From Nakamurella antarctica (lineage in GTDB: Bacteria > Actinomycetota > Actinomycetes > Mycobacteriales > Nakamurellaceae): a stretch of 64,000 nt of DNA. Made by a program: the position numbers and the translations under genes. The first letter of the stretch is position 1, and every line of letters starts with the position of its first letter. Shown piece by piece: positions 51,939-54,296 of the stretch. The stretch spans positions 1,488,001 through 1,552,000 of the forward strand of contig NZ_CP034170.1 in assembly GCF_003860405.1 (NCBI RefSeq), read 5' to 3'. A model generated the notes under the pieces. The model was given only the letters and a program-made list of their open reading frames with translations, was not told the origin of the DNA and searched no databases.

Positions 51939-53300
<1,362 letters not shown>

Positions 53301-53500
53301 TCACTGGCAGGCAGCATTCGGACAAGCTAGGAAAAAAATTCTGATGACGGAAGGCTCGCGGATCTGAAAGGCGGCACGCTCGCCGATAGTGGCGGTAGAT
53401 CGGTGGATGGTCAGTGGGAAAGAGCGAGCAGCTTGCGCCCCACCACTGCAGGGAACGGGTCCTCTAGAAACCTCATAGATGGCGTTGACCTGCGAAAAGT

Positions 53501-53574
53501 GCCCCTGGTCAGACTCGAACTGACACTACACGGATTTTGAATCCGTTTCCTCTGCCAATTGGGATACAGGGGCT
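53501..53574 (-). tRNA. tRNA with CAA anticodon and class I (short variable arm) shape
   Basis: On the minus strand the 74 bases fold as a cloverleaf: acceptor GCCCCTG/CAGGGGC, D arm with TTGGC loop, anticodon stem ACGGA/TCCGT with loop TTCAAAA (anticodon CAA, leucine TTG by the code), a 5-base variable region (GTAGT), T stem GTCAG/CTGAC with loop TTCGAGT, and discriminator A. CCA is not encoded. Normal bacterial leucine tRNAs have a long variable arm of the class II type, so the identity is unusual. Confidence 0.85.
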
Positions 53575-53717: not shown

Positions 53718-54296
53718 ATGGCGCCACCGAAGCGAGTCCTGATTGCAGAAGACGAGGCTCTGATTCGGCTCGACCTCAAAGAGATGCTTGCCGAAGAGGG
53801 CTACGACGTTGTGGGCGAAGCAGGCGACGGTGAGGAGGCACTGCGGTTGGCGGTGGAACTGAGGCCGGACCTGGTAATTCTCGACATCAAAATGCCGAAG
53901 AAGGACGGGCTCCAAGTCGCCGCCGAGTTGTCCGAGGGACAAATAGCGCCCGTGGTCATGTTGACTGCGTTTTCGCAGCCCGAGCTCATCTCCCGGGCTA
54001 CCGAAGCCGGCGCCATGGCATATCTGGTGAAGCCGTTCACCAAGTCAGACCTGTTACCAGCTATCGAAGTGGCAATTGCCCGCTATAGCGAGTTAGTGCA
54101 GTTGCGCGCCGAGGTGGAGGACATCACCGAACGGTTGGAAGTTCGCAAGATCATCGACCGTGCCAAGGGTTTGTTGATGGAAAAACAAAAGATGTCCGAA
54201 CCTGAAGCATTCCGTTGGATGCAGCGAGCAGCGATGGATCGGCGGGCATCCATGCGAGATATTGCGCAAGCGGTACTTGATGGGCTCGGGGCCTAG
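53718..54296 (+). CDS. pdtaR: ANTAR-domain response regulator (PdtaR-like)
   Basis: 192 residues from ATG 53718 (MAPPKRVLIAEDEALIRLDL) with AGGGGAG before it. The receiver domain has the acidic pair in IAEDEA, the phosphate acceptor Asp56 (LVILDIKMP), MLTAFSQ and the Lys of AYLVKPF. The C-terminal ANTAR domain (LEVRKIIDRAKGLLMEKQKM, EAFRWMQRAAMDRR, DIAQAVLDGLG) binds RNA hairpins and prevents termination. Its histidine kinase (PdtaS) is not in this window. In mycobacteria the same gene lies near polA and the uncoupled targets are scattered. Confidence 0.93.
   Translation: MAPPKRVLIAEDEALIRLDLKEMLAEEGYDVVGEAGDGEEALRLAVELRPDLVILDIKMPKKDGLQVAAELSEGQIAPVVMLTAFSQPELISRATEAGAMAYLVKPFTKSDLLPAIEVAIARYSELVQLRAEVEDITERLEVRKIIDRAKGLLMEKQKMSEPEAFRWMQRAAMDRRASMRDIAQAVLDGLGA

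Follow-up and report, generated by a model that had tools for sequence, protein, structure and literature searches.

A leucine tRNA gene without the long variable arm, and class I leucine tRNAs across an actinobacterial order

The stretch of DNA analysed here, 64 kb long and called the window below, carries one tRNA gene as called by ARAGORN, a tRNA-Leu(CAA) at 53499-53573 on the minus strand. The RF00005 model matches 53500-53573 of that strand at 56.7 bits (gathering score 29; E = 1.6e-10; 7001 bases, both strands), and the cloverleaf thus lies above the curated cut-off. A sequence-only reading had described a cloverleaf with a CAA anticodon and a 5-base variable region at 53501-53574; the structure was right and the position one base off, 53500-53573 being correct. 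It had also described a lone minus-strand tRNA between gdhA and an ANTAR regulator gene, and here the tRNA was indeed the only one in the window and both neighbours were confirmed (Table 1). The gene lies outside any prophage or tRNA array, as it is the sole tRNA in 64 kb and its flanking genes are metabolic and regulatory. Our scan, which is weak for actinobacteria, matched no sigma-70 promoter or terminator near it.

The acceptor, anticodon and T stems have 7, 5 and 5 bp, and the D stem has 3 bp with a mismatch at 13.22. The discriminator base is A (A73); CCA is not encoded, and CTTTT comes next. The gene has the leucine anticodon and A73 expected of a tRNA-Leu. A long extra arm is standard in bacterial leucine tRNAs. 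With 5 nt, the variable region has the length of class I (4-5 nt) and is too short for class II (at least 10 nt). The suspicion of a leucine tRNA that lacks the long arm was borne out, with a clean cloverleaf and GUAGU as the variable region. The leucine elements known from Escherichia coli, A15-U48, G18G19 and A20a, are all present.

Table 1. Features at the locus and the other class I leucine tRNA genes of this genome
Feature	Position	Strand	Evidence
Class I-shaped tRNA-Leu(CAA), 74 nt without CCA, variable region 5 nt	53500..53573	-	ARAGORN, RF00005, alignment
Anticodon CAA (reads UUG)	53537..53539	-	ARAGORN (anticodon at position 35), sequence
Variable region GUAGU, positions 44-48, last base U48	53525..53529	-	Sequence, alignment columns 45-49
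PdtaR-like ANTAR response regulator gene, divergent from the tRNA	53718..54296	+	Pfam Response_reg, ANTAR
Glutamate dehydrogenase gene	51939..53279	-	Pfam ELFV_dehydrog
Class I tRNA-Leu(TAA) of this genome	C1:826201-826273		ARAGORN
Class I tRNA-Leu(TAG) of this genome	C1:2163063-2163136		ARAGORN

The single 3.38 Mb contig of this genome gave 47 matches to RF00005. ARAGORN, run on all 47, identified five leucine tRNA genes, one each with CAA, TAA, TAG, CAG and GAG. The CAA, TAA and TAG genes are class I, the CAG and GAG genes are class II with the usual arm, and the four tRNA-Ser genes and tRNA-Tyr are class II as well. No class II gene with CAA, TAA or TAG was found among the 47 matches. With one leucine gene found per anticodon, no class II backup turned up for any of the three class I genes. 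The second, normal tRNA-Leu(CAA) that had been proposed as a check was looked for among the same 47 matches, and none turned up. The tRNA of the window, one of three class I leucine tRNAs in its genome, is unusual against the textbook rule.

The codon that this tRNA reads was examined in gltB (to residue 964 of 1522), gltD and leuS, each aligned with its best PDB homologue, which we take to be from B. subtilis or T. thermophilus. TTG was aligned with leucine at 25 of 45 positions, CTG at 48 of 103, CTC at 16 of 34 and CTT at 9 of 22; the rare codons TTA (2 of 6) and CTA (1 of 4) are thinly sampled. The alignments of pyruvate kinase and GdhA were excluded, because their best PDB matches, presumably from Mycobacterium and Corynebacterium, come from genera that may share the class I trait. 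In these alignments to distant homologues UUG behaves as a leucine codon, like the CUN codons. Since TTG makes up 45 of the 214 aligned leucine codons in the three genes, the tRNA reads a common codon. An altered genetic code was considered and rejected, as UUG aligns with leucine as often as CUG does (25/45 vs. 48/103).

One LeuRS gene exceeded the family cut-off in each of the 21 genomes searched, this one included. The LeuRS of this genome (leuS, locus L275, C1:3347000-3351000) has an insert of about 49 residues (P0001, residues about 199-247) compared with the LeuRS of PDB entry 1h3n. A break in the match to the LeuRS model lies near 141-144 in genomes of families f1, f2, f3 and f7, close to the site of this insert; it ends at 186 in f4, and f5, f6, f8 and f9 genomes break elsewhere.

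In the part of PMC9976931 available to us, leucine identity in E. coli is assigned to A73, A15-U48, G18G19 and A20a; the long arm is not required, and tRNA-Leu variants that lack it stay active. Leucylation of the window tRNA by LeuRS is the best inference, because these determinants are kept, UUG behaves like a leucine codon and the genome has one LeuRS. LeuRS would charge it through elements common to ordinary bacterial tRNA-Leu, namely A73, A14, the A15-U48 Levitt pair, G18G19, A20a and the enlarged D loop with its 13.22 mismatch; the long arm would not be used. The tRNA would then decode UUG as leucine, and the class I CAA, TAA and TAG tRNAs together would take the place of three class II leucine tRNAs out of five.

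The sequence-only reading had made its case depend on conservation of the cloverleaf in relatives. We aligned 23 chosen class I leucine tRNAs, 22 of them distinct. The cloverleaf is kept: standard pairs fill 95.7% of the 439 cells, and 14 of the 20 pairs show changes on both sides, compared with a shuffled mean of 9.5 and no shuffle of 500 as high. Two measures are weaker. The observed number of pair types was reached in 27 of 500 shuffles, and the last pair of the anticodon stem is unpaired in 9 of the 22 distinct tRNAs.

The 23 sequences were used to build a covariance model of class I tRNA-Leu (R1), and ten chosen sequences gave a class II model (R2). Genes of this genome were included in both, and because they were training sequences their scores are high by construction. 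With that reservation, the CAA, TAA and TAG genes score 97.9, 89.4 and 86.9 bits on R1, respectively. The next tRNA of this genome is Lys(TTT) with 67.3 bits, and all others have 67.3 or less (41 sources; six loci were omitted as tRNAs already present or identical copies). Outside the training set, the 45 high-scoring R1 matches that were fetched (L081-L125) were all tRNA-Leu of class I length, 37 with TAA and 8 with CAA. On R2 the ten training sequences score 88 bits or more, class I leucine tRNAs 56 or less and tRNA-Ser 49 or less. The window tRNA gave no match to R2 at E <= 1, and the TAG and TAA genes of this genome reached 56.1 and 53.4 bits. Class II leucine tRNAs new to R2 score 75 to 105. 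In six genomes read tRNA by tRNA, R2 gave 26 matches, of which ARAGORN called 25 as Leu and one as Pro(AGG). The model is incompletely sensitive, as it gave no class II CAA gene in three of these six genomes (G034, G225 and G379).

Matches to R1 at E <= 1e-18 were found in 181 of 199 genomes of the order, those matches that were fetched being classed by ARAGORN. The 18 genomes with no such match comprise 14 of family f15, two of f10, one of f4 and one of f12. Each of the 16 genomes of the own genus in this sample has three class I matches. Class II genes across the order were counted as R2 matches, with the anticodon checked in the genomes read tRNA by tRNA. On this count the class I and class II numbers add up to five in 150 of the 199 genomes, and the Spearman coefficient is -0.80. 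The sums of five are made up of two class I and three class II genes in 72 genomes, three and two in 52, one and four in 17, and none and five in 9. For example, genome G030 has five class II leucine tRNAs and no class I match, and G190 has class II CAG, GAG and TAG together with class I CAA and TAA. The other 49 genomes sum to 3, 4, 6, 7 or 8, owing to incomplete drafts, score cut-offs or genuine gain and loss of genes. In a sample of the phylum, 85 of 296 genomes had an R1 match and 211 had none. With a plain blastn search, the window tRNA had matches in 26 genomes out of 41 (this one and relatives), fewer than were obtained with R1.

A pattern scan of named genomes gave at least 118 class I leucine loci, 80 of which were listed with names. 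By our assignment actinobacteria account for 71 of these 80; of the rest, eight are bins from metagenomes that bear the names of other phyla and one has no classification. The actinobacterial names listed include Mycobacterium, Corynebacterium, Nocardia, Rhodococcus, Gordonia, Nocardioides, Bifidobacterium and Pseudarthrobacter. Fewer than four tRNAs are present at 105 of the 118 loci listed, and 13 are arrays. At the 105 non-array loci the class I leucine anticodons are TAA (66), CAA (28), TAG (9), CAG (2) and AAG (1), and in the 13 arrays class I leucine tRNAs also occur with CAG, GAG or AAG. Nine multi-tRNA loci (L137, L145, L150, L212, L221, L229, L233, L236 and L240) have a tRNA-Leu of class I length with a CAG anticodon, and some of them also have GAG, AAG or TAG on such tRNAs; L150 comes from a metagenome bin named Cyanobacteria. 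Six records of actinobacterial plasmids, among them NZ_LR134447.1 (160915-160988), contain DNA that matches the window tRNA, in whole or in part, with 80-90% identity. Five of these records have no annotated feature at that place, and one has no annotation at all.

The matches listed yielded 138 parsed leucine tRNAs, 129 of class I and 118 of these distinct. The variable region has 5 nt in 112 of the 118, 6 nt in five and 4 nt in one. U48 together with A73, which the search pattern did not impose, was present in 115; the three that lack them look mis-registered by one base. The combination of A15, U48 and A73 occurs in only 3 of the 36 non-leucine class I tRNAs of this genome. Because it is found in the Lys and Arg(ACG) tRNAs, these three bases alone do not prove leucine identity.

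The locus itself is shared widely. The sequence-only reading had the impression that similar tRNAs lie at this spot in other actinobacteria, and it was well founded: of 62 distinct loci with a class I CAA gene (63 before a gene counted twice was removed), 46 had a homologue of the ANTAR gene pdtaR within the stretch fetched. The proportion was 14 of 16 in the own genus and 32 of 46 outside it. Loci were classed by their first class I leucine tRNA, and L074-L076 were left out. The two genes are divergent in 42 of the 46 cases and in tandem in four. The 16 loci with no pdtaR include four arrays and loci of Corynebacterium. A pdtaR homologue was found at 1 of 107 TAA loci and 1 of 10 TAG loci, both with 37% identity. 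Among the loci compared, glutamate dehydrogenase adjoins the tRNA in no genome but this one. The class II CAA genes read in relatives also lie beside pdtaR, in all three cases: those of G030 and G042 (f15) are divergent as in the window, and that of G331 (f20) is in tandem. No pdtaR was found at the other 23 loci examined alongside them. Different families thus have different classes at one site, an arrangement that implies an in-place swap of the classes.

Class I leucine tRNAs are also carried by phages. ARAGORN found one in each of nine phage records chosen from blastn matches: PascalRango, Peregrin, P106B, S-CBWM1, Bacchae, Sf-FR1, Mx1, F1M1E and CeilingFan. Their hosts are Mycobacterium, Rhodococcus, Streptomyces, Rhizobium, Synechococcus, Lactobacillus, Myxococcus and Enterobacter. 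S-CBWM1 carries class II leucine tRNAs besides. At E <= 0.01, blastn with the TAA, TAG and CAA genes matched 119, 179 and 289 phage records, respectively, the class being read in the nine only. Baka (Omegavirus) and other phages share 43 identical bp with the class I tRNA-Leu(CAA) of M. asiaticum, in the 3' half of that gene, and this match takes in the short variable region. According to the part of PMC10865867 available to us, Omega rebuilds the tRNA-Leu-CAA gene of M. smegmatis at attB-11 through a 44-bp core, and Gaia integrates into the same gene without rebuilding it and carries its own copy. The phage match implies that the M. smegmatis gene would be class I. The CAA gene of Gaia, annotated with 83 nt, belongs to class II. 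Provided that the gene of M. smegmatis is indeed class I, lysogeny by Gaia amounts to a replacement of class I by class II in nature. In genome G011 the class I tRNA-Leu(CAA) gene (C2:1331665-1331737) has a copy of its bases 38-74 at 1342686-1342722 (L057, L079), about 11 kb away. In G029 the CAA gene (C182:2726-2799) has a copy of its 3' part at 1352-1395 (L069, L080), 1.3 kb away. Both copies look as would the repeats left by an integrated element.

Taken together, the tRNA of the window is very probably a class I elongator tRNA-Leu that is charged by LeuRS without the arm and reads UUG, and with the TAA and TAG genes it replaces three of the five class II tRNAs. Its anatomy, the leucine complement, the near one-for-one complementarity of the classes, the behaviour of UUG, the single LeuRS and the presence of either class at the locus are observed; from these we infer the charging by LeuRS and the route of class exchange. 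By all indirect evidence this tRNA is an ordinary part of translation, as in most genomes sampled in the order. The earlier suggestion that it might be non-translational, or charged with another amino acid and bear CAA by chance, is very improbable. Its class I shape would fit such a role, its nearest non-leucine relatives in this genome are the Asn and Lys tRNAs, and Lys(TTT) is next best on R1. However, no other CAA gene was found in the genome, UUG aligns as leucine, the E. coli determinants are kept, the class II counts are complementary and conservation is broad. That the gene is a pseudogene or a prediction artefact is scarcely credible. The unusual shape, the missing CCA and the lack of a promoter match point that way, but the 56.7 bits, the intact stems, the compensatory changes and the finding of three class I matches in all 16 genomes sampled from the genus argue against it.

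How the short form arose is less clear, and we hold two origins tentatively. An ancestral actinobacterium may have lost the long arm of its own class II tRNA-Leu by deletion, with phages and arrays taking up the short form later and some lineages going back to class II. The constancy of the place beside pdtaR, for both classes (46/62 and 3/3), is in favour of this, and for the class I TAG gene, class II Leu-CAG (53 bases) and Leu-GAG (52) are as good a match as any other tRNA of this genome. But the D arms of the two classes differ beyond what a deletion elsewhere would give. Compared with all tRNAs of this genome, the bodies of the CAA and TAA genes have their best matches, by a small margin over class II Leu, among the tRNAs for Asn, Lys or Arg; the CAA form is closer to Asn (50) than to Leu-CAG (47) and the TAA form closer to Arg (54) than to Leu-CAG (45). 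It is possible to a similar degree that a class I tRNA-Leu of a phage or array replaced the resident gene in place by integration at the tRNA gene, known as tRNA-dependent lysogeny, followed by decay of the prophage. The nine of nine chosen phage records from eight host genera, the use of the M. smegmatis CAA gene as an integration site (PMC10865867, in the part available), the 43 bp that Baka-type phages have in common with a mycobacterial class I CAA gene, the class II CAA gene brought in by Gaia and the copy 11 kb from the G011 gene are consistent with this route. On the other hand, the sole replacement with a known donor would run from class I to class II, the place beside pdtaR is widely conserved, the loci compared showed no recent replacement by a class I gene, and S-CBWM1 has class II leucine tRNAs too. 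A wider idea, which we consider rather doubtful, is that the long arm is a tradeable character: armless leucine tRNAs would circulate in phages and arrays, and the classes would be swapped beside pdtaR by phages that destroy the gene and supply another. We speculate that the armless form is kept because it is missed by toxins or nucleases that take hold of tRNAs with a long arm.

In most genomes sampled from one order (181/199), one to three of the leucine isoacceptors thus break the long-arm rule; class I leucine genes also occur in genomes that bear the names Mycobacterium and Corynebacterium. Such genomes offer natural cases in which to ask, as has long been asked, which features of a tRNA LeuRS requires, and they call for care where annotation assumes that tRNA-Leu is class II. 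They also suggest a route, open to testing, through which phages could alter essential tRNA genes of a host. In the literature searched, which leaves most subscription papers outside and makes an absence weak, we found no description of class I tRNA-Leu as a general feature of any group of bacteria; a 2023 review, in the part available, states the opposite. In the available part of PMC11541572, tRNA-Leu-2, -3 and -5 of M. tuberculosis are named as long-looped, and the remaining tRNA-Leu would then be short-looped.

Several known tRNAs invite comparison. A known tRNA-Met-like gene whose anticodon has changed to CAA also lacks the long arm, but it is thought to be a silenced pseudogene or to have another role, and is unrelated to the window tRNA. 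The tRNA-Leu of the nine phages resemble it in leucine anticodon, class I length and blastn similarity to the queries; they differ in being phage-borne, several in tRNA clusters, and presumably supplement host genes. Animal mitochondrial tRNA-Leu(UUR) is likewise a leucine tRNA that lacks the long arm, and the human one is specified by A73 and A14 (PMC9976931, in the part available). It is organellar with a fragile anticodon stem, whereas the window tRNA has a full bacterial cloverleaf and occurs beside class II isoacceptors. In the Mmuc and Mpho type strains, according to the available part of PMC6582537, a tRNA cluster encodes a tRNA-Leu(TAG) whose variable loop is short. It is an extra copy there, another TAG gene having the normal larger loop, unlike the present case, in which the sole copy found of each of three anticodons is class I. 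With bacterial class II tRNA-Leu (E. coli, and the CAG and GAG genes of this genome) the window tRNA has in common the leucine anticodon, A73, A14, A15-U48, G18G19, A20a and the D-loop layout with the 13.22 mismatch. It differs from them in its 5-nt variable region in place of the long arm, in other D-stem bases and in A9, where the aligned class II leucine genes have G9.
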